In this document: piece after piece, positions 29,483-55,139 of the stretch
Layout: the number at the start of each line of letters is the position of its first letter
How positions within the stretch are numbered: position 1 is the stretch's first letter
Origin: Streptomyces poriferorum
Lineage (GTDB): Bacteria; Actinomycetota; Actinomycetes; Streptomycetales; Streptomycetaceae
Assembly: GCF_019399235.1 (NCBI RefSeq)
Contig: NZ_JAELVH010000016.1
Span: forward strand, 1 to 64,000
Direction of reading: 5' to 3'
DNA length: 64,000 nt
Made by a program: the position numbers and the translations under genes
The notes under the pieces: generated by a model
Seen by the model: only the letters and a program-made list of their open reading frames with translations
The model's database searches: none
Told to the model about the DNA's origin: nothing

Positions 29483-32131
29483 TCATGGCTGGGCTCGCGT
29501 CGTAACGAACGAAGAGTGCTGATCAGTCGCCGGACTCACGGGCTCCAGTTTGATGCTGAAGTGTCGGAGGATCGGGGACTGGCCCGTAACCCGGTAGCCA
29601 CGGACCGATTCAGGATTCTTCGCGATATCTGCCAGGGTGGCGGCAACGTGGTCGTAGTGGCTGCGGGTGTAGACCCGTCGGGGGAGAGCCAGCCGTACAA
29701 GTTCGTAGGGCGCCGTCTTGACAGGGTTGCCGTGCTCGTCCTCTTCACCGAGGTACAGCGACCCCAGCTCCGCCGAGCGGATGCCTCCGCGCAGGTAGAG
29801 CTCGCAGACGAGTGCGGTGCCGGGGTACTGGTGCGGGGGGATGTGGGGCAGGAGGCGCCCGGCGTTGACGTAGAGGGCGTGCAGACCGGCGGGTTCCACG
29901 ATGTCGACGCCGGCCTCGCGGATACGTGCGGCGAGATAGGCGGCTATGTCGGCACGCTCGGCGAGGTAGGCCGGCTCGGTCACTTCGAGGAGGCCGCGGG
30001 CCATCATGTCGAGGTCACGTCCGGACAGACCGCCGTAGGTGGTGAATCCTTCGGTGGCGATGAGCAGACCCCCGCACCGCTCGGCGAGTTCGGCGTCCTT
30101 CAGGCCGATGAAGCCGCCGATGTGGACGATCCCGTCCTTCTTCGCGCTCATGACGCAGCCGTCGGCGAGGCGGAAGGCTTCCTCGGCGACCTGGCGCGGG
30201 GTGCGGTCGGCGTAGCCGGGTTCGCGCTGGGTCACCAGCCAGGCGTTCTCCGCGAACCGGGCCGCGTCGAGGATCATCGGCACGTTGTGACGGCGGCACA
30301 GTTCGGCGGTGCGGTGCAGGTTGTCCATGCTGACCGGCTGGCCCCCGCCACCGTTGTTGGTGATGGTCATCAGCACGGCCCCAACGGGCGTCCGGTCCGC
30401 ATTCTCCAGGGCCTGTTCGAGGGCGATCAGGTCGATGTTGCCCTTGAACGGAAAGTCGCTGTCGAGGTCCTTCGCCTCGGCGCAGGGCAGGTCGTACGCC
30501 GTGCAGCCAGTCAGTTCGACGTTGGCGCGGGTGGTGTCGAAGTGCGTGTTGGACAGCACACTCGTGCCAGGCCGCAACAGCGAGGAGAAGAGGATGCGCT
30601 CGGCCGCGCGGCCTTGGTGGGCCGGCAGGATGTGGGGGTAGCCGGTGAGCTCGGAGACGACCTCGTGCCACCGGTAGAAGGAGCGGCTGCCGGCGTACGA
30701 CTCGTCGCCCTGCATTCCTGCGGCGAGCTGGTCTGCGGAGATGGCACCGGTCCCGGAGTCGCTCAACAGGTCGATGGTGACTTCGTCGGCCCGCAGATCG
30801 AAGGGGTTGTAGGCGACCCGCTTCAGCGCGGCCTCGCGCTCCTCCCGGGTGGTGAAAGCAAGAGGTTCTACGACCTTGATGCGGTAGGGCTCCACGTGAC
30901 TTCCTTCTGTGCGGTGTGCGGTGTGCGGGCTGACGTGGCCGACGGCCTGGTGCCCGAGGTCCAGGACGCTCCGGGTGAGTTGCGCAGGCATCCAGGTGCC
31001 CCGCGGGTACTGCTCCTGCGGCGGCCGGACGCGGTGGGCCTCGGAACTCAGGTAGGCGGTGAGCCGGGGCGGCCGGTTGCGCTCGTACACCAGGGCCAGG
31101 TAGGCGATCAGCCCCACGCCGTCGGCGAGGTTTCGCTGTGTAAGCGCTCCCAGACTTCGGTTCAGGACGGTGGGGTCCATGCCGGCCCGGGTCAGCAGGG
31201 CTGTGGCGCGGGCGAGGGCCTCTTCGTCATCGCGCACGTAGTCGCGAACGGGAATGTGGAGCGTGAAGCCGCTCGGGTTGCTGTCGCCTTCGGTGAAGGA
31301 GTGGCAGGTGAGCACCGGCCGCCGCACCAGTCGCAGGGTGTCGTTTCCGCCGCGCTCGGACGGCGCGAGGGAGCCCGCGGCCGCGTGGAAGAAGTAGCGG
31401 ATGTCGGCCGCTGCGGCTCCGGAGGCACGGCTGAGCGCGCAGGCGTCATCGGCTGACATCCGCGGGTGTCTCACGTAGACCTTGACGCGGGGGGACGTCC
31501 AGGCGCCCAGGTCCAGAGCGAGGAACGGGTAGCCGGCCGCCGGGGGCAGTTGCTCGAAGGCCTGGCCGTAGCCGAGCCGCCGCAGAGCCTCCTGCACGGT
31601 GCGGGCCGCGCCTTCCGGGCCGGAGGCGGAGGGGTTCAGGTAGACCTTGACCCCTGGGACCCCTCCGGCGCGCAGATCGAGCGCGTACCACAGGGCCAGG
31701 GGGCCCTGGGCTGCAGCGGGGAAGAACAGGTCGGCGAGGGCGTCGAGTCGGTCGGTGGCGAAGCCCCAGCGGGCGCCCATCGCGCGGATGACCGCAAGCC
31801 CGGCGCGGCCGCTGTCAGCCATGTCGCTGTGGACCCACCCGGGCTCCACGAGCACTCGCAGGGCCGGGGCGGCGTCCGGAGAGCTGGCGAGGGAGAACTC
31901 GACGGGGCTGTGGTCATCGGAGAGGAAGGTGGGCGAGGCCGGCGGCAGGGACAGCGGCCGGTGGGCGGCGCCTGCGAGGGAGGCGATCAGGACCTGACCG
32001 TACAGCTCGGTGTCCGCCTCGCTCAGGCCCACCGTGGCGCCCAGGCGCCGCAGTTGACCGAGTACGTGGTCGCCGAGCGTCGTCTCACCGGGGCTGGTTG
32101 CCGGTATGCCGGGGCCCGGGCGGGAGGTCAT
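29483..32131 (-). CDS. Indole prenyltransferase-tryptophanase fusion
   Basis: 882 codons without a stop; ATG at 32131 after GAGG. Residues 1-412 are a bacterial DMATS/ABBA-type indole prenyltransferase (FSLASSPDAAPALRVLVEPG, GVKVYLNPSASG, PRVKVYVRHPRM, GFTLHIPVRDYVRDDEEAL). Residues 413-882 are a complete tryptophanase/tyrosine phenol-lyase-type PLP enzyme (VEPYRIKVVEPLAFTTREER, TITNNGGGGQPVSM, PMILDAARFAENAW, MSAKKDG with the PLP lysine near residue 252 of this part). In Streptomyces these are known as separate neighbouring genes that make 6-dimethylallyl-Trp and cleave it to prenylated indole, pyruvate and ammonia. The linker contains a ribosome binding site and GTG, so the second enzyme may also be made alone. 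No flavin monooxygenase is adjacent. Confidence 0.88.
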   Translation of the reverse strand: MTSRPGPGIPATSPGETTLGDHVLGQLRRLGATVGLSEADTELYGQVLIASLAGAAHRPLSLPPASPTFLSDDHSPVEFSLASSPDAAPALRVLVEPGWVHSDMADSGRAGLAVIRAMGARWGFATDRLDALADLFFPAAAQGPLALWYALDLRAGGVPGVKVYLNPSASGPEGAARTVQEALRRLGYGQAFEQLPPAAGYPFLALDLGAWTSPRVKVYVRHPRMSADDACALSRASGAAAADIRYFFHAAAGSLAPSERGGNDTLRLVRRPVLTCHSFTEGDSNPSGFTLHIPVRDYVRDDEEALARATALLTRAGMDPTVLNRSLGALTQRNLADGVGLIAYLALVYERNRPPRLTAYLSSEAHRVRPPQEQYPRGTWMPAQLTRSVLDLGHQAVGHVSPHTAHRTEGSHVEPYRIKVVEPLAFTTREEREAALKRVAYNPFDLRADEVTIDLLSDSGTGAISADQLAAGMQGDESYAGSRSFYRWHEVVSELTGYPHILPAHQGRAAERILFSSLLRPGTSVLSNTHFDTTRANVELTGCTAYDLPCAEAKDLDSDFPFKGNIDLIALEQALENADRTPVGAVLMTITNNGGGGQPVSMDNLHRTAELCRRHNVPMILDAARFAENAWLVTQREPGYADRTPRQVAEEAFRLADGCVMSAKKDGIVHIGGFIGLKDAELAERCGGLLIATEGFTTYGGLSGRDLDMMARGLLEVTEPAYLAERADIAAYLAARIREAGVDIVEPAGLHALYVNAGRLLPHIPPHQYPGTALVCELYLRGGIRSAELGSLYLGEEDEHGNPVKTAPYELVRLALPRRVYTRSHYDHVAATLADIAKNPESVRGYRVTGQSPILRHFSIKLEPVSPATDQHSSFVTTRAQP
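30893..30910 (-). promoter_or_regulatory. Embedded ribosome binding site and GTG of the tryptophanase part
   Basis: On the minus strand GAAGGAAG lies 4 nt before a GTG (first base 30895) that begins the conserved tryptophanase N-terminus VEPYRIKVVEP. From here the enzyme is 470 aa, the normal family length. This is either a relic of a separate gene or an active internal start. Confidence 0.75.
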
Positions 32132-32483
32132 CGTATGCCTCGCACGTCGTGGCGCGTAACGCGTCTGGACGGTACGGGAGTACGGGGACGCGCTCCGCCG
32201 ACAAGGGAGGAGACGAGGGCCGATCCGCTGCCGGGAGCAGCGGGTATTCGGTCCTGCGGCTGGTCGGGGTCGCCGCCCCCGCACAGGTTCCGTCTGCTGG
32301 GGGTGGTGCGCCGTGGGCCCGGTCGGGCGCTCGCGGATGGTGGCGCGGAGATGCTTGCGAGGTCCACTGCCTCTCCTTCATCTTGTGTCACTCCAGACAC
32401 TCCGCGCCGTCCTACCCAGGAAGTTGATCTTTCATGCAGGCTACGTCAACTGCCTGTGTCACATGCATCACAGGGGGTGTGGG
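32132..32483 (-). promoter_or_regulatory. Leader between conservon and prenyltransferase
   Basis: About 350 nt. It contains a TTGACG box (minus strand, near 32447), short inverted repeats (GTGTC/GACAC near 32385-32400; CAGGC/GCCTG near 32436-32455), and ATGAAGGAGAGGCAG opening a frame of unclear worth. A separate promoter for the fusion gene is likely here. Confidence 0.4.
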
Positions 32484-33830
32484 CTACTGGCCCGTCAGCC
32501 ACTTCATGAAGCCGCTCCAGCGCCCCGCTTTGCCGTTGGGCTGCGGCGCCGCCGGCGCGGGTGCGGCCGCGACGGGGGGTGCCTGGTAGCGGGGCACGGC
32601 CGTCGGCTGCGGAGCGGCCGCGGCGCGCGGGGTGACTGCGCTGAACCGGACGGGCAGGGAGGCCAGGGCCCGGTTGAAGGGGCCGGGCCGCCAGGCGAGG
32701 CTGTCCGCGGGGACGGCGAGTTCAACGTCGGGCAGGGCGTTGAACAGCGTCTCCAGGCCCGTCAGGGCGATCAGCCTGGCCGGCTCCTTCGACGGGCAGG
32801 CGTGCGGGCCCGCGCTCCAGGCGAGGTGACCGCGGGTGTCGGCACCGCGGTCCGCGAGCGCCGTGTTGGCGGCGCCGAAGGACACCAGCACCAGGTCACC
32901 GGCGCGCACCTTGTCGCCGGCCACGTCCGCGTCGACCACCGGGTAATGGGGCGCATAGTTGGACATCGGCGCATTGCGCCACAGAGTGTCGTCCACAGCC
33001 TTGTCGAACTGTCCCAGGCGCGCGAACTCCTCGTTGGTCAGCATCGTGTAGAAGGCGTTGCCGATCAGGTTGCCCTCCGGCTCGCCGCCCGCACCGAGGA
33101 GCAGCACCAGCGTGTGCGCCAGTTCCTCGTCGTTCAGCTGCGCCGGATGCTGCATCAGGTAGGACGTGATGTCCTCCCCGGGCTGGGCGCGCTTGAGCGC
33201 CACCAGCTCGCTGACCGCTCCGAGCAGGACCTGGCTGGCCGCCTCGGCGTTGGCTCCGTCGAACATGCCGGAGATGCCGAACAGCACCCGGTCACCGATC
33301 TCTGCCGGGCAGCCGAACAGCTCGTTGAACACGTACAGCGGGAGCTGCTGGGCGTAGTCGCGGAGCAGGTCGGCGCTGCCGCGGGCGCTGAACTGGTTGA
33401 TCAAGAACTGGGCCGCCTGGCTGACGATCCGGCTCAGCCGCTTGTTGCTGACGCGGGCGAAGGAGTCGGTGATGGCCTGCCGCAGCCGCACATGCTCGGC
33501 GCCGTCGGTGAACATCGCGTTCGGCCGGTAGGCCAGCAGCGGCAGGACCGGGCTGTCGGGGCGGACGCAGCCCTCAGCCAGTGCACGCCAGCGGCGTGAG
33601 TCCTTGCGAAAGGTCGTCGAATCCTGCAGCAGTTCCAGAGCCGCGTTGTAATCGGTCACCAGCGTCGCCTCCACGCCGGGGGCGATGGTGACCGGAGCAG
33701 TGGGGCCGAGCTCGCGCATGTAGCGGTAGTACGCGTGCGGATTGGCAGCGAACTCCGCGCTGTCCAGGGGTATGCGCTGCCCGCTGCCGTGTGCGGGGCA
33801 GCCGGGCGGAGGTACAGAGGGGGTTGTCAT
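32484..33830 (-). CDS. cvnE: Conservon cytochrome P450, CYP157-like
   Basis: 448 aa; its ATG overlaps the CvnD stop. Heme-ligand region WSAGPHACPSKEPARLIAL supplies the cysteine (about residue 344). The K-helix, where P450s carry ExxR, reads VDDTLWRNAPMSNYAPHYP and has no ExxR in register. The I-helix (LLLGAGGEPEGNLIG) lacks the usual acid-threonine pair. The CYP157 family of Streptomyces conservons is documented as lacking the ExxR motif, and position and sequence fit that family. The C-terminus has a Pro/Ala-rich tail ending FMKWLTGQ. Role probably redox chemistry or signalling within the conservon; the adjacent prenylated-indole genes suggest a substrate. Confidence 0.88.
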   Translation of the reverse strand: MTTPSVPPPGCPAHGSGQRIPLDSAEFAANPHAYYRYMRELGPTAPVTIAPGVEATLVTDYNAALELLQDSTTFRKDSRRWRALAEGCVRPDSPVLPLLAYRPNAMFTDGAEHVRLRQAITDSFARVSNKRLSRIVSQAAQFLINQFSARGSADLLRDYAQQLPLYVFNELFGCPAEIGDRVLFGISGMFDGANAEAASQVLLGAVSELVALKRAQPGEDITSYLMQHPAQLNDEELAHTLVLLLGAGGEPEGNLIGNAFYTMLTNEEFARLGQFDKAVDDTLWRNAPMSNYAPHYPVVDADVAGDKVRAGDLVLVSFGAANTALADRGADTRGHLAWSAGPHACPSKEPARLIALTGLETLFNALPDVELAVPADSLAWRPGPFNRALASLPVRFSAVTPRAAAAPQPTAVPRYQAPPVAAAPAPAAPQPNGKAGRWSGFMKWLTGQ

Positions 33831-34432
33831 GTGTGCTCCAGGTCGGCGCGCTCGTGCAGATAGCGGACCAAGGTGATCAGGGCGTCGACGGACGACTTCT
33901 CGTCGCGTGCGTCGATGGTGACGACGGGGGTGTCGGGCAGCAGGTCGAGTGCCTCCCGGACTTCCTCCGGGGTGTGGACCGTACTGCCGTCGAAGTGATT
34001 GATGGCCACGGCGAAATCGAGGCCGTAGCTCTCGACCAGATCCATGACGTCGAAGGAGTCGGCGAGGCGCTCGGGGTCCACCAGGACCAGGGCGCCCAGC
34101 GCTCCGCGGGCCGTGTCGTCCCACAGACTCACGAAGCGCTGCTGTCCGGGGGAGCCGAACAGATACAGAACGATGCGCTCGCTCAGCGTCAGCCGGCCGA
34201 AGTCCAGGGCGACGGTGGTGGTGGTCTTCCCCTGAACCCCTTTGAGGTCGTCGACGCGCTCCGAGAGCGTTGTCATCCGCTCCTCGGTGGACAACGGCGT
34301 GATCTCGGAGAGTGAGCTGATCAGGGTGGTCTTGCCGACGGCGAAGTGTCCGACGACCAGGATTTTCACTGCAGTCTGCTGTGCGCCGCTGGGCACGTAG
34401 GCATCCTCAGACAGAGAGAGCCTTGAGGCCAT
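33827..34432 (-). CDS. cvnD: Conservon GTP-binding protein
   Basis: 201 aa small GTPase-like protein. Walker A/G1 is VVGHFAVGKTTLISSLSE, switch II/G3 is LFGSPGQQRF, G4 is AINHFD (NKxD variant). Related to MglA/Ras-like conservon GTPases thought to cycle nucleotides in a membrane complex with CvnA, B and C. Its start overlaps the end of cvnC by 26 nt and its stop overlaps cvnE by 4 nt, so expression is tightly coupled. Confidence 0.93.
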   Translation of the reverse strand: MASRLSLSEDAYVPSGAQQTAVKILVVGHFAVGKTTLISSLSEITPLSTEERMTTLSERVDDLKGVQGKTTTTVALDFGRLTLSERIVLYLFGSPGQQRFVSLWDDTARGALGALVLVDPERLADSFDVMDLVESYGLDFAVAINHFDGSTVHTPEEVREALDLLPDTPVVTIDARDEKSSVDALITLVRYLHERADLEHT

Positions 34433-34796
34433 CGAGCACCTCCTTAAGCAAGGCCTTGTTGGTGGGACGGGCCGAGGGCACCGGCGCCCGGGTCACGAGA
34501 TAGCCCCCCTCGGCGAGGGAACTGAGCAGCGCCTTGACCACCCCGAGCGGCAGCTGGGAGTGCGCGGCGATCTCAGCGACCGAGAGGTAGCCACTGGAGC
34601 ACATCTCCAGGATCTGTTCCTCTTCGGGCGAGAGCCGTTGGGGGCGCTGCTGCTCGTCGGTGGCTGTCGTAACGAGAGTGATGAGGGCGAACTCGCTCTC
34701 ATCGGGCAGGTCACGGCCACGGGTGATGACGTAGGGACGGACTAATTCTCCGGCCTCGGACACGAACTCGGGCTCGGGACGGCCGGGTTCCGTCAT
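34407..34796 (-). CDS. cvnC: Conservon DUF742 protein
   Basis: 129 aa, DUF742 family: VRPYVITRGRDLPDESEFALITLV, then a winged-helix-like segment RLSPEEEQILEMCSSGYLSVAEIAAHSQLPLGVVKALLSSLAEGGYL (split here by motif, about 55-105). Known conservon component; proposed adaptor between the kinase-like CvnA and the GTPase CvnD. Confidence 0.93.
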   Translation of the reverse strand: MTEPGRPEPEFVSEAGELVRPYVITRGRDLPDESEFALITLVTTATDEQQRPQRLSPEEEQILEMCSSGYLSVAEIAAHSQLPLGVVKALLSSLAEGGYLVTRAPVPSARPTNKALLKEVLDGLKALSV

Positions 34797-35191
34797 GAGG
34801 TGACCGTGTCGCCGCGAAGGCCGGTCGACATCGCCTTGCCCAACCGGCTGACCAGCTGCTGCATCCGGTACGTGATGTCCTGCATGTCGACCTCGGCCGA
34901 CGCCGCCACGGCGAGGTAGCTGCCGCCGCCCGCAGCGTTCAGGAACACCCAGCCCCCGTCGAACTCGATGAGGGTCTGGCGCCAGTTCGCTCCGTGCTCA
35001 CCGCAGAAGAAGCTGACGGCCCGGCTGAGCGACTGCAGGCCGGAGACGGCGGCGGCCACCTTGTCGGCATCGCCCCTGTCGAACTCCGCAGTACGGGACA
35101 TCTGGAGGCCGTCGGCAGAAATCAGGACCGCGTGGAGAGCATGCGGAATCTGCAGCGCGTCCTCAAGCATCCAGGACAGGTCGTCGCTCAC
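34793..35191 (-). CDS. cvnB: Conservon Roadblock/LC7 protein
   Basis: 132 aa Roadblock/LC7 domain (LSWMLEDALQIPHALHAVLISADGLQMSRT, VAAAVSGLQSLSRAV, YLAVAASAEVDMQDITYRMQQLVSRLG, about 4-122). Such proteins act as GTPase regulators, fitting a partnership with CvnD. Overlaps cvnA and cvnC by 4 nt on either side. Confidence 0.94.
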   Translation of the reverse strand: MSDDLSWMLEDALQIPHALHAVLISADGLQMSRTAEFDRGDADKVAAAVSGLQSLSRAVSFFCGEHGANWRQTLIEFDGGWVFLNAAGGGSYLAVAASAEVDMQDITYRMQQLVSRLGKAMSTGLRGDTVTS

Positions 35192-36387
35192 GGGGCATCG
35201 AATCCTTCGTGTGAATCGGCAGTGGTATCGCCTTCGGCGGCCGGTACCCCCGCACCTCGGCCGCTGAGAGTGCCGCGCTGAAACGCGCCCATGGCCGCCA
35301 CCCGTGCCTCTGCTGACCGGGCCGGCGGCGCTTCATCAGATCTGCGGCCGCCATCCGGCACGAGCGCCATACCGCGCTTGTTCCGTCGCCGGGGCAGCCC
35401 GCCCTCTGTCGCCGCAGGAGCCGAAGCGCGGCTCTCGGCAGCGGCATTGACTTCTTGCGTGGTAGTGGGCGTCTTGGGCTCGGGCATCTCGGTCAACAAC
35501 TCCTTCGGCACCATCACCACCGCGCGGACGCCGCCGTAGGGAGAGGTGCTGTCGATGGCGACCGTGAACCCGAACCGCGCACACAGGGCACCGACCACCG
35601 CGAAACCGAACGCGGGAGGGTTGCCGAGCTCCGAAACGCTCACCGCAGACCCGCTGGACAGCAGAGCGGTGGCGTTCGTCCGTTCTTCCTCGCTCATGCC
35701 GACACCGGCGTCGTCGATCACGATGCAGATGCCCCGGGGCACCGTCCGCACCTCGACCTCGACCATGGTGGACGGCTCGGAATAGCTGGTCGCGTTGTCG
35801 AGCAGCTCGGCCACCGTCAGCGCGATCGGTTCGACGGCACGGCTGGTCACCGCGAAATCGACCCGTGAGGCGATCTCGATGCGCTCGTAGTGCCGGATAC
35901 GGCCCTGCGCTCCGCGGATCACGTCATAGACCGATGCAGCCTCCCGCTGCCGGCCGAGCCACCCGCCGCACAGCACAGCAATGGACTGCGCACGCCGGTT
36001 GAATTGCGAGTTCATGTGGTCGATGTCCAGCATGTCCCGCAACACGGCCGAGTCGCCGTACTTCTTCTGCAGCCCGGAGATGGCCCGCTGCTGCTCCGCG
36101 GCGAGGCCTTGAAGGGTCCGCATGGCCGACTTCAGTACGGTGTTTGTGGCCTCCTCCGCCTCTTCCTTGGCCTGGCGGACCACCTCGTCGTAGCCGCTGC
36201 GCAGCTCGGTGACGGTGGACTCGAGGCCGACGGCCCTGCCCTGCGATGCGGTCAGCTCACCCTGAAGGCCCTGCTTTTGACGACGTAGCGCCTTGATCGT
36301 TTTTCGCTGGCGAGTGATTACCGTGGCGGCGACAGCGACGCCGACGGCAAGCGCCCAGACTGTCGGATCCTGCCAAAAATTCGTCAT
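35188..36387 (-). CDS. cvnA: Conservon sensor kinase-like membrane protein
   Basis: 399 aa from the ATG at 36387 (MTNFWQDPTVWALAVGVAVAATV), which places one membrane helix at residues 8-26; a longer open frame upstream would bury this helix. A coiled coil follows (about 28-75), then a helical region (about 80-160) and a HATPase_c domain: VAELLDNATSYS (N-box), IVIDDAGVGMSEEE (G1), FGFAVVGALCARFGF (G2). No obvious phospho-accepting histidine in the usual H-box. The Pro/Arg-rich tail is disordered. First gene of the conservon. Confidence 0.92.
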   Translation of the reverse strand: MTNFWQDPTVWALAVGVAVAATVITRQRKTIKALRRQKQGLQGELTASQGRAVGLESTVTELRSGYDEVVRQAKEEAEEATNTVLKSAMRTLQGLAAEQQRAISGLQKKYGDSAVLRDMLDIDHMNSQFNRRAQSIAVLCGGWLGRQREAASVYDVIRGAQGRIRHYERIEIASRVDFAVTSRAVEPIALTVAELLDNATSYSEPSTMVEVEVRTVPRGICIVIDDAGVGMSEEERTNATALLSSGSAVSVSELGNPPAFGFAVVGALCARFGFTVAIDSTSPYGGVRAVVMVPKELLTEMPEPKTPTTTQEVNAAAESRASAPAATEGGLPRRRNKRGMALVPDGGRRSDEAPPARSAEARVAAMGAFQRGTLSGRGAGVPAAEGDTTADSHEGFDAP

Positions 36388-37124
36388 GTGACTCTCTATT
36401 GAGCGGCTGGATTCCAGCTCTCGAAATCTGTCCAAGCGGACCCTCGGCTGTGGGCAGACGTCACCGCCCGGAGAGCCCCCTGGCTGTAGCCATGCCAAGG
36501 TGAATGCTCACATGGCATGTGCACGCGAGCGTATCACCGGACGATCATGAGACTCCGTCAAGTCCGCCACGCCGTTGTCCCGTTGGCCAAAAACGCATGT
36601 TCATGTCAGTGAGGAAGGTGTGCCTGCAGGGTGGAGGCCCAGTGGCGGAGCGCGCAGCATGCCGCTCAGTAGTGTGGCACCTGGGTTCTTGCAGCTCTGC
36701 GCCGCATCTCGCCTCGTAGCGGGCTGACGCAGCGATACAGAGCAGGGCGAGTGCCATCCGGCCAGCAAGCGTTCCAGGGCGCAAGATGGCCGATTCGAGA
36801 GCGGGCTACTGACAGCGACGCGAGCTGCGACTCAGGGCATGTGACCGCAGTCTCACGGTCTGGGCTTCCTTGCCGCCGGCAGCATGTCCAGAACGCGGCG
36901 ACGCGAACGACGGAGGCGGCCCAGCCCGTATTCAGGTGCGCCCGTACTGGAAGGACCTGCGGGAAGCGCCCCATGAAGACCGCGTCGCCCCGTGATCGCT
37001 GACCCGCCCGACTGCGATCTGCACGGACGCCCAGCCTGGTCGCTACGGATATCGACCGCACCAGTCAGCAACCCGCCGACGCCGGCTATGCATGCAGGTT
37101 CTATGCGTCCGGCCCGACCGGCAG

Positions 37125-40690: not shown

Positions 40691-40821
40691 CCGCGAGGGG
40701 AACGGTCGGCCTGCCCGGCCGGGGCAGGGCAGACAGACCACTTCCGTGTCCGTCCCGAAAGCCCCCGATCGGCGCTGCGGTGCGCAACGGGAGTGCGGCC
40801 TCAGCAGGCTAAGAATTGACC

Positions 40822-43554
40822 ATGCCTGTGACTCGTGCTGCCCGGTCGGCCCGGAAGTCCTTCCCCTCTCCGCCGCGGACCCTTGCCGGACAGGTGTTCC
40901 TGCTGCAGTTGCTGGTGGTCGTGCTGCTGGCCGGAATGATCGCCGCCGCCTTCGTGTTCGAGGCGCACCGGTGGGCGGTGCGGGAGGCGTACGACCGCTC
41001 GCTCGCGGTGTCCGAGACCTTCGCCCACGCGCCCGGTACCCGCGCGGCCATGGAGTCCCGCGACCCCAGTGCGATTCTCCAGCCGAGTGCCGAAGCGACC
41101 CGCCGGACGGCAAACGTGACGTACGTGGTCGCGTTCGATCCGAACGGCATCCGCTGGAGTCACCCCGACGCTTCGCTCATCGGCGGACATGTGTCAGGCG
41201 GGTTCGCGCCTGCGTTCTCCGGCGAGCCGTTCCAGGAGACCTTCGACAGCACCTTGTTCGGTCAGGCGGTGGACACGACGGTCGCCGTGTTCGGCGAACG
41301 GGGCGAGGTTGTCGGGCTCGTCTCCGTGGGCATCACGGTGCAGAGCGTGAACGAAGTCGTCCTGGGACAACTTCCGCTGCTGCTGGGGCTGGTCGCCATC
41401 GCGCTCGCCCTTGCCGCTGGCGGATCGGCGCTCATCAGCCGTCGGCTGCGCGCGCAGACGCACGGACTGGGCCCAGTGGAGATGACCCGCATGTACGAGC
41501 ATCATGACGCGGTCCTCCATGCCGTCAGGGAGGGAGTCGTCATCGTCAGCTCGGACGGCCGGCTGGTCCTCGCGAACGATGAAGCACGGCGGCTGCTCGA
41601 CTTGTCTGCCGACGGGATCATGGACCGTTCCGTCTCCGGGCTTGGCGTGTCACGGCAGATCGCGGACCTGCTGGCCTCGGGCAGAACGGCGAACGACGAC
41701 GTCCACCTCGTCGGGGGCCGGCTCGTCTCCGTCAACCAGAGGGCCGTGGGCGGTGCGGGCCAGCGCTCGGGCAGCGTGGCCACCCTCCGTGACACCACGG
41801 AGCTGCGCACCCTCGCCACGCGGGCCGACGTCGCCCATGACCGGCTGCAGTTGCTCTACGACGCCGGGCTGACGATCGGAACCACCCTCGACGTGACCCG
41901 TACCGCGGAGGAGTTGGCGGCGGTGGCGGTCCCGCGGTTCGCCGACTTCGTCACCGTTGAACTGTTCGGACCGGTCTTCCAGGGCGACGAACCGACGGCT
42001 GCTGTCACCGAGATGCGCCGCGCCGTAGCATCGGGCATCCGTGACGATCACCCGTTCCTGCCTGCCGGAAGGATCATCAGTCTCGTGCCGGGGAACCCTC
42101 TGGCCGCCGGCACCGTCACGGGGCGTCCGCACATTGAGGCGGACCTCGACGGGACCGAGGCGTGGCGGACCGTGGATCCGGACAGAGCGCGACGGATCCT
42201 GGAGTTCGGTATCCACTCCCTGGTCTCGGTCCCGTTGCGGGCCCGCGGCGTCGTGCTGGGAACGGCCGACTTCTGGCGCTCCGATCAGCGGTCCTTCGAC
42301 GCCGACGACCTGTCCTTCGCGGAGGAGCTCGGAGCACGGGCGGCCGTCGCCGTGGACAACGCGCGCCGCTACACCCGCGAACACTCGGCGGCCGTCACTC
42401 TCCAGCGCAGTCTGCTTCCGCGTGCCCTGCCCGAGCAGCCCGCGCTGGAGACGGCTTACCGATATCTGCCGGCCAAGGCCGGGGTGGGCGGCGACTGGTT
42501 CGACGTCATCGGGCTGTCCGGGGCCCGTTTCGCCCTGGTCGTCGGTGACGTGGTCGGCCACGGGGTCCACGCCGCGGCCACCATGGGCAGGCTGCGTACC
42601 GCCGTGCTCAACTTCTCGGCGCTCGACCTTCCGCCCGACGAGCTCCTCGCGCATCTGGACGAGCTCGTCACCCGCATCGACGCCGGCTGGGGCGCCGATG
42701 ACGAAGATGCCGCCGTGACCGGCGCGACCTGTCTGTACGCCGTCTACGACCAGGTCACAGGAGCGTGCACCGTCGCCCGTGCGGGACATCCGGGCCCCGC
42801 TGTGGTCGCCCCGGACGGCAGGACCACGTTCCCTGACATCCCGGGCTCCCCACCGCTGGGGCTGGGAGGCAACATGCCTTTCGAGACGGCCGAACTGCAG
42901 CTGGCCCCAGGCAGCCTGCTGGTCATGTTCACCGACGGCCTGGTCCAGGGCCGGGAGCGCGACATCGGCGCCGGTCTCGCCCTGCTCCGGGACGTCCTGG
43001 CCGTTCCCGGGCGCAGTCCTGAGGATGCCTGTCAAGCGGTGCTGGAGCAGGTGCTGGGCTCACTGCCCAGTGACGACGTCACATTGCTCATCACCCGTAC
43101 CAGCCTCATGGACCAGGGGCGCGTGGCGGAATGGGACGTGCCGCAGGACACCGCCGCCGTCTCCCGCATCCGCACAGAGGTGCAGCAGACGCTGGAGCGG
43201 TGGGACCTCGACGAGCTCGCCCACACCACCGCCCTGATCATCAGCGAGCTCGTCACCAACGCCATCCGCTACGGCGCCCCGCCACTTCGGCTACGGCTCC
43301 TGCACGATCAGGCGAGTCTCATCTGCGAGGTCGCCGACGACAGCAGCACAGCGCCCCACCTGCGCCGGGCGGAGATCAGCGACGAAGGCGGGCGGGGCCT
43401 GTTCCTGGTCGCCCAGTTCGCCGACCGCTGGGGCACCCGGTACCTGCCCCACGGCAAGATCATCTGGACCGAGCAACTCCTCGCCCGCCCTGACCTCGAC
43501 GCCGGCACTCCGGATGAGGAGACCCTCCTGGCCCAGTGGGCCGACGACGAGTGA
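40822..43554 (+). CDS. Sensor-PAS-GAF-PP2C phosphatase-ATPase protein
   Basis: 910 aa, membrane-anchored. Order: helix 1 (about 24-46), extracytoplasmic single-Cache-like domain (about 47-178, VVAFDPNGIRWSHPD), helix 2 (about 180-203), PAS (about 215-330), GAF (about 345-515), SpoIIE/PP2C phosphatase (about 545-755, GVGGDWFDVIGLSGARFALVVGDVVGHG with the metal-binding aspartates), and a C-terminal RsbW-like HATPase (about 770-890, LIISELVTNAIRYGAPP, GGRGLFLVAQFADRWG). Such proteins combine anti-sigma-factor kinase and anti-anti-sigma phosphatase activities in partner switching. The Cache-like domain suggests control by a small external ligand. No anti-anti-sigma gene adjoins. Confidence 0.93.
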   Translation: MPVTRAARSARKSFPSPPRTLAGQVFLLQLLVVVLLAGMIAAAFVFEAHRWAVREAYDRSLAVSETFAHAPGTRAAMESRDPSAILQPSAEATRRTANVTYVVAFDPNGIRWSHPDASLIGGHVSGGFAPAFSGEPFQETFDSTLFGQAVDTTVAVFGERGEVVGLVSVGITVQSVNEVVLGQLPLLLGLVAIALALAAGGSALISRRLRAQTHGLGPVEMTRMYEHHDAVLHAVREGVVIVSSDGRLVLANDEARRLLDLSADGIMDRSVSGLGVSRQIADLLASGRTANDDVHLVGGRLVSVNQRAVGGAGQRSGSVATLRDTTELRTLATRADVAHDRLQLLYDAGLTIGTTLDVTRTAEELAAVAVPRFADFVTVELFGPVFQGDEPTAAVTEMRRAVASGIRDDHPFLPAGRIISLVPGNPLAAGTVTGRPHIEADLDGTEAWRTVDPDRARRILEFGIHSLVSVPLRARGVVLGTADFWRSDQRSFDADDLSFAEELGARAAVAVDNARRYTREHSAAVTLQRSLLPRALPEQPALETAYRYLPAKAGVGGDWFDVIGLSGARFALVVGDVVGHGVHAAATMGRLRTAVLNFSALDLPPDELLAHLDELVTRIDAGWGADDEDAAVTGATCLYAVYDQVTGACTVARAGHPGPAVVAPDGRTTFPDIPGSPPLGLGGNMPFETAELQLAPGSLLVMFTDGLVQGRERDIGAGLALLRDVLAVPGRSPEDACQAVLEQVLGSLPSDDVTLLITRTSLMDQGRVAEWDVPQDTAAVSRIRTEVQQTLERWDLDELAHTTALIISELVTNAIRYGAPPLRLRLLHDQASLICEVADDSSTAPHLRRAEISDEGGRGLFLVAQFADRWGTRYLPHGKIIWTEQLLARPDLDAGTPDEETLLAQWADDE

Positions 43555-51614: not shown

Positions 51615-54600
51615 TCAGCGACCCTGGTGACTCCCGTCATGGCCATGACCCGATTGGTGCTGGTCCTCGGGCGCCTTCGAGACCCTTCCCAGGGTTGTGG
51701 TGACCGCGGGCTCCAGGTTCCTGAACTGAGCGGTGTACGGGCCGACCTTGATGCCCTTCACTCCCTTGAGACCGGCGAGCTCCTGGAACGACGAGCTCTG
51801 CGACGCGGTGGTGAGGACGCGGATCGCGCTGCGCTGGAGATCGCCCAGCCGGAGCGGGTAGCCCTGGGTGGGGTAGTCGCCCTTCAGCGCGACGGTGTAG
51901 GCGACCACCGGGGTGCTGTCGTCGCCGGCCGTGGCGTGCTGGACACCGGTGATGCCGATGGCGGCCTTCTGCGCCGCACTCAGTGCCGTGCTGCTGGGGT
52001 CCAGCAGGGCGGTCACCGTGCGATAGGCCTCGTCGACCGAGGTGAACTTGGCGTTCGGCGTGAACACTTGGTTGTTGATCGCGTCCGTGACGGTCTCACC
52101 GGACTGCGGCGCCCGGGACAGGTCCGTGTTCTTGTCGACGGTCGTGCTCACGACTGTGCCACCGGTGGACGACGGGGTGAAGCCGCCGAACTGCCAGGTG
52201 TAGCTGACCCGCCCGTTGGAGCGGGTCGCCTTGTTGTAGGCGGGCAGGCCCGAGATGTCGATGGCCGGCGCCACCTGCTTGATGGCGTTGATGATCTCGG
52301 CCGGGTTGCCGCCGGGCTCGATGAGGTCGTTACCGGCGTACATAGAGGTCAGTGCGCCGTGGCTGCCACCCCAGTCCGACATGACCGTGCCCTTGTAGCC
52401 CCACTCGCCGCGCAGCAGATCGGTGAGCAGGTCGTAGTTGCTGGCGGCCCAGGTGCCGTTGACCTTGTTGTACGAGCTCATGACGGACATCGGCTGCGCG
52501 GCCTTGACCGCGATCTCGAATCCCTTGAGCTCGATCTCGCGCAGGGCGCGCTCGCCGACCACCGAGTTGCTGGTGTTGCGGCTGGTCTCCTGTGAGTTGG
52601 CGGCGAAGTGCTTGATGGTGACGCCGACCCCGGGAATGCTCTGGACGCCCTCGGTGGTGGCCGCGGCGGTCAGGCCGGAGACCAGCGGGTCCTCGGAGTA
52701 GTACTCGAAGTTGCGTCCGTTGAGCGGGTCGCGGTGGATGTTCATGCCCGGGGCGAGCCAGAGCTGGACGCCGTACTCCTGCATCTCCTCACCGACGGCC
52801 TCGCCGACCCGCGAGACCAGGCCGCGGTCCCAGCTCTGGGCGAGCATCGTGCCGATGGGCCAGGCGGTGCCCCACTGGTACGTGGGCTCGGTCGTGCCGA
52901 TCTGCTGCGTGAGACGCAGCCCGGCCGGGCCGTCCGCCAGTGCCATGCCGGGGATGCCGAGCTTCTCGTAGTTCGGTGTGGTGTAGCCGGCGGCACCCTT
53001 GGCGGTGAGCGTACTGCCCGCGGCGCTGGAGCCTTCGACGATGTCGGCGAGTTGCGAGACGTTCAGGCCTGCGACGAACTGCTCGATGGACGCCTTGCCC
53101 TTGGCGACGTCGTACAGGGTGGTCGACGAGTTCGTCGACACATGCTTGACCTTCTCACCGGTCTTCGGGCTGTAGGCCGCGCCGGTGCCCTCCCAGTCCT
53201 TCTGCTTCGGGTCGAGGTACGTCGTGGTCGACGCGATCCTGTCGCCGTCGAGCGCGTAGTACGGGGAGGACGAGTCGACCGCGGTGTCCTGCTGGTACGG
53301 CGACGCCTTCTTCTCGGTACGGAAGGAGCGGGCATCGAGGCCGATCCTGCGGGCCCGCGCGATCTCGGTCCGCTCGCCCGGGTAGGTGTAGAAGTCCTTC
53401 GGGGAGCTGGTGAGTTCCGAGTCGGGGGCCTGGTCGTCGAGTTCGGTGTGGTCCTGCTCGGTGACGACGGTCTTCGCGAGGTTGAGACGGGCCGCGACGT
53501 GGGTGTCACGGGACGAGTTGCCGACCCGCACGACGTAGTCGCCCGCGTCCAGCACGTAGGCCGCGCGGGACTCGTCGTAGGCGGCGAGCGACGTGGTGTC
53601 GAAGCTGATGGTCACCGTCTGGGACTGGCCCGGCGCGAGGTTGTCGGTCTTCGCGTAGCCGGTGAGCTGCTGGTACGCCTTGTCCAGGCCGGTCTGCGGA
53701 GCCGACACGTAGACCTGCACGACCTCCTTGCCACTGTGGCTGCGGCCGGTGTTGGTCACCTTCGCGGTCACCTTCACCGTGCGGGCGTCGGCCTTGACCT
53801 GCTGCGCCTTGATGTCGAAGGAGGTGTACGACCGGCCGTAACCGAAGGGGTAGTTGACCACACCGGCCGGCCTTGCGGGGTCGATCTTCCCGTAGAACGA
53901 GTCGAAGTAGCGGTAGCCGACGTAGATGCCCTCGGAGTACTGCTCCAGCAGGGAGTCACCGTCGTTCTTGGCGAACGTCGAGGCGGCCGGGTAGTACGAG
54001 TAGGCGGACGCCCAGGTGTCGGTGAGCTTGCCCGACGGGGTGACGGTGCCGTTCAGCACCTCGGCGAGCGCGCTGCCGCTCTCCTGGCCGGCCTGACTCA
54101 TCAGCAACAGCGCGTCGAGCGCCTGGCCGCCCGGGGCGTTCTTGACCTCGTCGTTGATCTGCGGGAAGAACGACGTGTCCACGACACTGCCCGTGTTCAG
54201 GACCACGACGACACGCTTGTACGTCTGGCCGAGCAGCTTCAGGTTGGCGCGCTCGGTCGGGGTGAGCTGGTAGTCGCCCGGGCCGGAGGAACGGTCCGCG
54301 CCTTCACCGGAGTTCCTGGCCAGGACGAAGACCGCGGTGTCCGTGGGGGCCGCGGGCGCGGCGCCGGCGGCTGTCAGCGGCTGCTCGACGGAGGCGTAGT
54401 CGACGCTCGGGCCGAAGATGCCGCCGGTGGTGTCCGGGTACTTGGCGTCGTAAGCCTGCGTCATCGCGGACCAGTAGGCGTCGCTCGTAGTGACTCTGTA
54501 CCCGGCGTCGGTGAGCCCCTGTCGGGCCGAGATCGTGTACCGGTTGTTGACCGCACCCGAACCCGTGCCGCCCTTGACGGTCTTGTAGGCACCGACACCG

Positions 54601-54854
54601 AAGAGCGCCACGTTGCCCTTGCGGGAGATCGGCAGCGCTTGATCGTGGTTCTCGAGAAGCACCATCCCCTGGGTTGCCGCTTCACGCGAGAGTGCCGCGT
54701 TCTTCAGCTCCAGTGCGGCTGGGTTGGGGTCGGAGGTCGCCGCGGTCGCCGCAGGGGCTCCGGTGAGGACGAACGTCGCGACGACCGCGGTGGCCGCCGC
54801 GAGCGCCATCGCCCGGCCTCGACGGGCCCCTCTGACCGATCTCGTGGAGTACAT
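51615..54854 (-). CDS. Secreted domain-permuted GH3 enzyme
   Basis: 1079 aa. ATG at 54854 (MYSTRSVRGARRGRAM) opens a Sec-type signal peptide ending ATAAT. Domain order is inverted relative to classical GH3: the alpha/beta sandwich comes first (about 45-330, AALSREAATQGMVLLENHDQALPI), then a fibronectin III-like domain (about 345-450), a linker, and the catalytic barrel at the C-terminus (about 590-900) with KHFAANSQETSRNTSN and the nucleophile in GTVMSDWGGSH (near residue 825). Permuted GH3 enzymes are known. The end is His/Gly-rich (PEDQHQSGHGHDGSHQG). Probably an extracellular beta-glycosidase. Confidence 0.93.
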   Translation of the reverse strand: MYSTRSVRGARRGRAMALAAATAVVATFVLTGAPAATAATSDPNPAALELKNAALSREAATQGMVLLENHDQALPISRKGNVALFGVGAYKTVKGGTGSGAVNNRYTISARQGLTDAGYRVTTSDAYWSAMTQAYDAKYPDTTGGIFGPSVDYASVEQPLTAAGAAPAAPTDTAVFVLARNSGEGADRSSGPGDYQLTPTERANLKLLGQTYKRVVVVLNTGSVVDTSFFPQINDEVKNAPGGQALDALLLMSQAGQESGSALAEVLNGTVTPSGKLTDTWASAYSYYPAASTFAKNDGDSLLEQYSEGIYVGYRYFDSFYGKIDPARPAGVVNYPFGYGRSYTSFDIKAQQVKADARTVKVTAKVTNTGRSHSGKEVVQVYVSAPQTGLDKAYQQLTGYAKTDNLAPGQSQTVTISFDTTSLAAYDESRAAYVLDAGDYVVRVGNSSRDTHVAARLNLAKTVVTEQDHTELDDQAPDSELTSSPKDFYTYPGERTEIARARRIGLDARSFRTEKKASPYQQDTAVDSSSPYYALDGDRIASTTTYLDPKQKDWEGTGAAYSPKTGEKVKHVSTNSSTTLYDVAKGKASIEQFVAGLNVSQLADIVEGSSAAGSTLTAKGAAGYTTPNYEKLGIPGMALADGPAGLRLTQQIGTTEPTYQWGTAWPIGTMLAQSWDRGLVSRVGEAVGEEMQEYGVQLWLAPGMNIHRDPLNGRNFEYYSEDPLVSGLTAAATTEGVQSIPGVGVTIKHFAANSQETSRNTSNSVVGERALREIELKGFEIAVKAAQPMSVMSSYNKVNGTWAASNYDLLTDLLRGEWGYKGTVMSDWGGSHGALTSMYAGNDLIEPGGNPAEIINAIKQVAPAIDISGLPAYNKATRSNGRVSYTWQFGGFTPSSTGGTVVSTTVDKNTDLSRAPQSGETVTDAINNQVFTPNAKFTSVDEAYRTVTALLDPSSTALSAAQKAAIGITGVQHATAGDDSTPVVAYTVALKGDYPTQGYPLRLGDLQRSAIRVLTTASQSSSFQELAGLKGVKGIKVGPYTAQFRNLEPAVTTTLGRVSKAPEDQHQSGHGHDGSHQGR

Positions 54855-55139
54855 ATCAGTAAGTCCTCTCGCAACCACATTGTCCGCAAAGGAAGTTCAT
54901 GCAGAGCGGGCAGGCCTCCGACCCTGACGTTCATGGAGGGTGTCCGCTCGGCGCGAATGAAGCTGACCCTAAGAGCCGCCTTTTCTGTGGTCAATGGCCA
55001 AAACATGATGGACTTAGCGAATGTTTCAGCCCATCCTTGGCTAAATGATCGATTGGCTCCTCGCGCGGACCGGGCCGGTGACAGCCGGGCCTCAATCTGA
55101 TATACGGTCATACAGGGGTAGTCACATGTGATTCGCTGT
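54855..55139 (-). promoter_or_regulatory. Upstream region of secreted GH3 gene
   Basis: About 285 nt, relatively AT-rich around 54980-55050, without a gene; presumably the GH3 promoter and leader. Confidence 0.4.

Follow-up and report, generated by a model that had tools for sequence, protein, structure and literature searches.

In the closest described systems, a conservon is found together with an indole prenyltransferase gene (an IptA homologue) and a tryptophanase gene in so-called Type A clusters, some of which also carry a cytochrome P450 gene (Ozaki et al. 2013, PMC3617294). In that paper, the prenyltransferase (PT) and the tryptophanase (TNA) are consecutive steps of one proposed pathway, and Takahashi et al. 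are cited for 6-dimethylallylindole-3-carbaldehyde. The paper names a gene for each of the two enzymes, and the strings 'fus' and 'bifunctional' are absent from its text, whereas the locus analyzed here has both enzymes in one frame. A search of the open literature, which relied on listings and had most subscription papers outside it, found no report of a PT-tryptophanase fusion. The pieces and the pathway were already known, and the fused arrangement with two starts, together with its recurrence, is the new part.

The prenylindole cluster of S. poriferorum

We analyzed the first 64,000 nucleotides of contig NZ_JAELVH010000016.1 of Streptomyces poriferorum (assembly GCF_019399235.1), hereafter the window. 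The genes upstream of the fusion are as follows.

32484..33830, minus strand: cytochrome P450 gene, upstream in the cluster (86% identical to an annotated cytochrome P450; NCBIfam P450 matches below cut-off)
33827..34432, minus strand: conservon ATP/GTP-binding protein (Pfam ATP_bind_1; 86% to the annotated gene of a relative)
34407..34796, minus strand: conservon DUF742 protein (80% to an annotated DUF742 protein)
34793..35191, minus strand: conservon roadblock/LC7 protein (85% to an annotated roadblock protein)
35188..36498, minus strand: conservon sensor-like histidine kinase, start uncertain (Pfam HATPase_c; 71% to an annotated ATP-binding protein)

Judged by sequence comparison, the window carries a Type A prenylindole cluster composed of a four-gene conservon, P450, PT and TNA. 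Its gene content is the same as that of the Type A clusters in PMC3617294, and its gene order is that of an annotated plasmid cluster. Each gene has its counterpart in the annotated NBC_00470 operon, and on a Streptomyces plasmid this operon has PT and TNA annotated separately. The frames of the cluster genes neighbouring the fusion are open. A conservon and a P450 gene were likewise present in 11/11 fused loci checked for flanks, a check that left out L004 and L009, whose flanks are short. Besides the sub-cut-off NCBIfam scores of the P450 at 32484-33830, a Pfam profile search gave no match for it; the protein is divergent and has WSAGPHACPS at what we take to be the place of the haem-cysteine motif. 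PT-TNA pairs of Lentzea and Saccharothrix (L061-L065 and others) show a different layout, in which a divergent conservon lies downstream, on the other strand, and not upstream.

One open frame contains two full-length enzymes

The fused gene and its parts are listed below.

29483..32131, minus strand: fused open reading frame of 882 amino acids, a DMATS-type tryptophan prenyltransferase continuing in frame into a tryptophanase (open frame, family profiles, solved relatives)
31019..32131, minus strand: PT part, residues 1-371, ATG at 32131 (Pfam Trp_DMAT; PriB 5inj)
30866..31027, minus strand: linker, residues 369-422, predicted to be disordered (pLDDT below 50 over 369-422)
29483..30895, minus strand: TNA part, 470 amino acids, with its own retained GTG as residue 413 (NCBIfam NF009709; PDB tryptophanases)

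A preliminary description of this DNA had placed an indole prenyltransferase and a tryptophanase in one stop-free frame of 882 codons at 29483-32131. Open reading frame analysis bore out these coordinates and located the frame, whose strand had not been named, on the minus strand (32131 to 29483), with its stop codon at 29485-29483; the plus-strand reading of the same interval is broken by an internal stop. The minus-strand frame extends upstream to a GTG at 32284 (933 amino acids), and the ATG at 32131, which gives 882 amino acids, lines up with the annotated PT start in the plasmid relative. A search of the source genome for PT-TNA returned a single match, the window locus.

Both proposed enzyme identities, as well as the completeness of both halves, agree with profile and structure matches, and Pfam Trp_DMAT and Beta_elim_lyase were both found within the one 882-residue protein. 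The PT half scores above the gathering cut-off of Trp_DMAT (33.4 bits; cut-off 25) and under the curated cut-off of NCBIfam TIGR03429 (129.6 bits; cut-off 163.85). Despite this shortfall, its full-length match to PriB (5inj, 430.6 bits, residues 27-397 of 405) assigns it, at the sequence level, to the wider bacterial DMATS-type family. Two further solved chains, 6zs0 and 7w8u, match the window PT core at 430.2 and 389.6 bits; among the three, only 7w8u is named 6-dimethylallyltryptophan synthase. These solved chains have 369-405 residues and no tryptophanase, whereas the window PT has one attached. The TNA half matches the NCBIfam tryptophanase profile NF009709 at 615.3 bits (cut-off 285) over positions 8-462 of 463, and it stays under the TnaA equivalog cut-offs (NF053783, 486 vs 750 bits; TIGR02617, 452.2 vs 825.8 bits). 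The PDB tryptophanases 8sij, 1ax4 and 2oqx match it over the full length at up to 418.8 bits and share with it the SAKKD stretch, whose lysine presumably holds PLP. Compared with them, the window TNA would bear an N-terminal PT and a linker if translated from the upstream start. An uninterrupted frame with two full-length enzymes is consistent with the suggested bifunctional protein. A chance antisense open reading frame was ruled out because both halves match solved enzymes over their full length, and programmed frameshifting because the frame is continuous.

An AlphaFold model of the fused protein (64 aligned rows) contains two folded domains with a mean pLDDT of 83.0, a 54-residue stretch (369-422) with pLDDT below 50, and a pTM of 0.55. 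With a linker of this length predicted to be disordered and such a pTM, no fixed domain arrangement is expected. The suggestion that the enzyme channels its product from PT to TNA found no support in this model, which is a monomer and does not reach a channel in an oligomer.

Fused and split loci across Streptomyces

Relatives were compared in a wide survey (best 80 of 128 loci, with a ranking that favours in-frame pairs) and in a junction analysis that took in loci up to 113 and left out L114 onward. Among the 113 loci analyzed, 111 have PT upstream of TNA (L031 and L095, with no PT upstream, were dropped), and removal of 15 duplicates left 96 distinct loci. These comprise 14 fused loci, 33 in-frame pairs with a stop and 49 pairs in another frame; the value of 14/96 is no frequency, since the ranking favours in-frame pairs. 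Separate neighbours, as described earlier for relatives, therefore make up 82/96 distinct loci, and the search for fusions in relatives was also productive. Among 29 pairs in the best 30 loci from 392 Streptomyces genomes, 6 are fused (including the window), 4 have an in-frame stop and 19 are in another frame.

Fused loci were found in S. scabiei 87.22, S. europaeiscabiei, S. stelliscabiei, S. caniscabiei and S. ipomoeae, as well as in S. phyllanthi, S. tailanensis, S. diastatochromogenes and other strains, and four of them (L004, L007, L009 and L041) lie on contigs of at least 10 Mb. The single-frame fusion is thus present in the window and in independent genomes. Ten of the 14 fusions fall in one 16-row clade including S. 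scabiei, S. europaeiscabiei, S. stelliscabiei and S. ipomoeae (hereafter the scab clade); on the tree, an in-frame stop separates PT and TNA in its other 6 rows, and no row is in another frame, although an out-of-frame member could be missed through the locus rankings. Among the relatives of S. scabiei searched, no fused locus was found besides G296 and G108. The loci of S. scabiei 87.22 and its relatives (L069, L041, L039, L077 and others) resemble the window in order, stop-free junction and TNA start codon. They differ in that they stand elsewhere in the tree, with unfused rows between them and the window, and in linker sequence; moreover, their fusion is common to a clade, whereas in the window's clade it occurs in one genome only.

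On the 96-locus tree, a quick tree with 26/93 inner branches weakly supported, the fewest fused/unfused changes number 6. One origin for all fusions was rejected on this tree, in which the window fusion is nested in an unfused clade. The PT-TNA join is recurrent, since other Streptomyces, including potato-scab species, have their own fused versions. It had been held that finding relatives always separate would speak against the fusion; this pattern holds within the window's clade, where the five other members are all unfused, and fails for the family, with 14/96 loci fused. In a plasmid search, the query was covered to at least 80% by 2/88 matching records, and PT and TNA are separate in both.

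Several genomes have more than one locus. In the S. alfalfae XY25 record, identical PT-TNA proteins are encoded at three loci, each on a different contig (L055, L056 and L057), perhaps reflecting duplicated contigs or a mixed assembly. Two differing loci each were found in S. caniscabiei (L035, L100), MNU76 (L042, L058) and uw30 (L067, L097); in S. caniscabiei and strain MNU76, one locus is fused and the other unfused.

A 7-bp repeat unit at the junction

Two features mark the junction, which lies where it had been placed earlier (30880-30960).

30908..30928, minus strand: three perfect copies of the 7-bp unit CCGCACA (coding strand) (TRF; alignment with relatives)
30900..30908, minus strand: Shine-Dalgarno-like stretch AGAAGGAAG, just 5' of the TNA GTG (sequence; duplex energy -6.9)

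The window's clade has six rows in the 96-locus tree, and its five other members are all unfused, with PT and TNA overlapping in different frames. These five share with the next relatives, L014 and L055, a PT frame that stops 28 nt inside the TNA gene and an anchored spacer of 131 nt; the window spacer measures 138 nt. The alignment shows two repeat units in all seven, with perfect units only in L050 and L055, so that among the five clade relatives L050 alone has a perfect two-unit repeat. The window PT and TNA share one frame because of one extra 7-bp unit, which is known from one draft assembly of 695 contigs. In the relatives PT runs into TNA without a prior stop, and therefore there was no PT stop to remove before fusion. 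A single slippage-like event would be the simplest completion of the window fusion.

Shuffling the spacers of the 14 fused loci gave a stop-free chance of 0.31 to 0.77, to be multiplied by about 1/3 for the frame; an in-frame, stop-free junction is not astronomically unlikely by chance. The unusual trait of the window junction is the missing PT stop: a PT-frame stop lies ahead of the TNA start in 73/82 unfused loci. In the other 9/82, the PT frame reaches the TNA start without meeting a stop and the genes overlap out of frame (L010, L011, L012, L014, L048, L050, L055, L086 and L110). Each of these nine could become a fusion through a short insertion or deletion of suitable length.

The internal tryptophanase start is retained

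The TNA start codon of the window is a GTG at 30895-30893 on the minus strand, with AGAAGGAAG upstream. A start codon is kept at this place in 14/14 fused loci (ATG in 9, GTG in 5). The mean Shine-Dalgarno energy at the TNA start is -8.15 in fused loci and -7.85 and -8.53 in unfused loci, compared with -3.88 for a background of 370 in-frame internal ATG/GTG codons; these are duplex energies of pairing with the 16S tail. The window site itself is moderate, as 48/370 background sites score equal to or better than -6.9. In the fused scab-clade loci, GGAGCA ahead of the TNA start is invariant in 10/10, third codon positions included, and conservation is 0.87 in the 24 nt before the start vs 0.69 in the preceding 36 nt. 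An ATG or GTG with a Shine-Dalgarno-like stretch has been kept though the fusion needs neither, which points to free TNA alongside the fusion. These sequence features make it probable that TNA is still able to be produced separately from the internal start.

Selection on the fused frame

In the scab clade, 0/6 spacer-length changes shift the frame, compared with 32/54 elsewhere (Fisher p = 0.0075; the latter counts were obtained by subtraction from whole-tree minimum counts of 32/60). Since the clade was picked after fusions were seen there, this frame-keeping is suggestive only. Codon-level selection on the linker, as expected for a tuned fusion, was not found in nine fused pairs: amino-acid-changing codons exceed silent codons in 9/9, and third positions form a clear majority of linker changes in one pair only (9 changes in total). 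In each of five stop-separated pairs, third positions are equal or highest. Coding constraint, if anywhere, would appear in the stop-separated pairs rather than in the fused ones. GC by codon position is coding-like in the window linker (0.77, 0.51, 0.91) and in the same stretch of its unfused clade, where it is the PT tail (0.75, 0.51, 0.89), and less coding-like in the scab-clade linker (0.63, 0.65, 0.78). A neutral substitution simulation of the scab clade (500 runs) left a mean of 7.2/16 tips stop-free; the observed 10/16 is unremarkable because at least 10 were reached in 24% of runs (P = 0.24). Stops occur in the scab clade at two separate tree placements. Taken at the sequence level, the evidence that selection holds the fused frame in this clade is suggestive.

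Interpretation of the fusion

Our preferred reading, to which we assign a probability of about 0.68, is that the window carries a Type A cluster whose PT and TNA were fused by an extra 7-bp unit and which gives two products, a fusion with a floppy linker and free TNA. Ribosomes starting at PT would make the former and those starting at the retained GTG the latter. Tryptophanase is a tetramer, and cells with both products could assemble mixed tetramers. Following the work of Ozaki et al., PT would convert tryptophan and DMAPP to dimethylallyltryptophan, TNA would cleave this to dimethylallylindole, and the P450 might oxidise dimethylallylindole afterwards. The pathway may tolerate the fusion or be mildly helped by it; the fusion is dispensable for the pathway, as the two genes are separate in most of the loci examined. 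A broader version, in which fusion recurs through stop loss and small indels, selection holds the fused frame in the scab clade while the internal start is kept as well, tetramers of the two products carry variable numbers of PT arms and the 7-bp repeat might act as a split/fused switch in the window lineage, appears doubtful to us.

It is quite possible, at somewhat under even odds, that the fusion is neutral read-through, the PT stop having been lost by chance with the linker unselected and activity unchanged. The excess of amino-acid-changing codons in 9/9 fused pairs, the P of 0.24 for 10/16 stop-free rows and the two placements of scab-clade stops all favour this, against which stands the contrast of 0/6 with 32/54 frame shifts (p = 0.0075, suggestive only). 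Such neutrality would not conflict with the two products proposed in the preferred reading, and the odds of the two are not exclusive. A bifunctional enzyme under selection, with prenyltryptophan channelled from PT to TNA, would account for the frame kept in the scab clade and would join consecutive steps of the pathway proposed in PMC3617294; given the predicted 54-residue disordered linker with no fixed domain arrangement, the retained internal TNA start and the 82/96 unfused loci, we consider it unlikely.

Very unlikely, in our view, is a sequencing or assembly error in a strain that truly has two units and overlapping separate genes. The extra unit is absent from all five other clade members and comes from a single draft genome; however, the 21-bp array is shorter than an ordinary read, a clean 7-bp tandem copy is generally atypical of read errors, and the neighbouring cluster genes are open. 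Fusions in finished genomes such as that of S. scabiei 87.22 demonstrate the existence of such genes, without vouching for this one.

The window fusion illustrates how readily consecutive enzymes of a specialised pathway can come to share one frame, given no PT stop and one 7-bp unit. Split, overlapping, stop-separated and fused versions form a natural series for direct tests of the value of enzyme fusion. If the internal start is used, annotation of such genes as single fused enzymes would miss a free tryptophanase.

Other genes of the window

Two further genes were noted. At 51615-54878 on the minus strand, a glycoside hydrolase family 3 enzyme of 1087 amino acids has a permuted domain order: C-terminal domain (72-322), Fn3-like domain (385-456) and N-terminal domain (668-846). 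At 40816-43554 on the plus strand, a 912-residue regulator combines sCache, PAS, GAF, SpoIIE phosphatase and HATPase domains.
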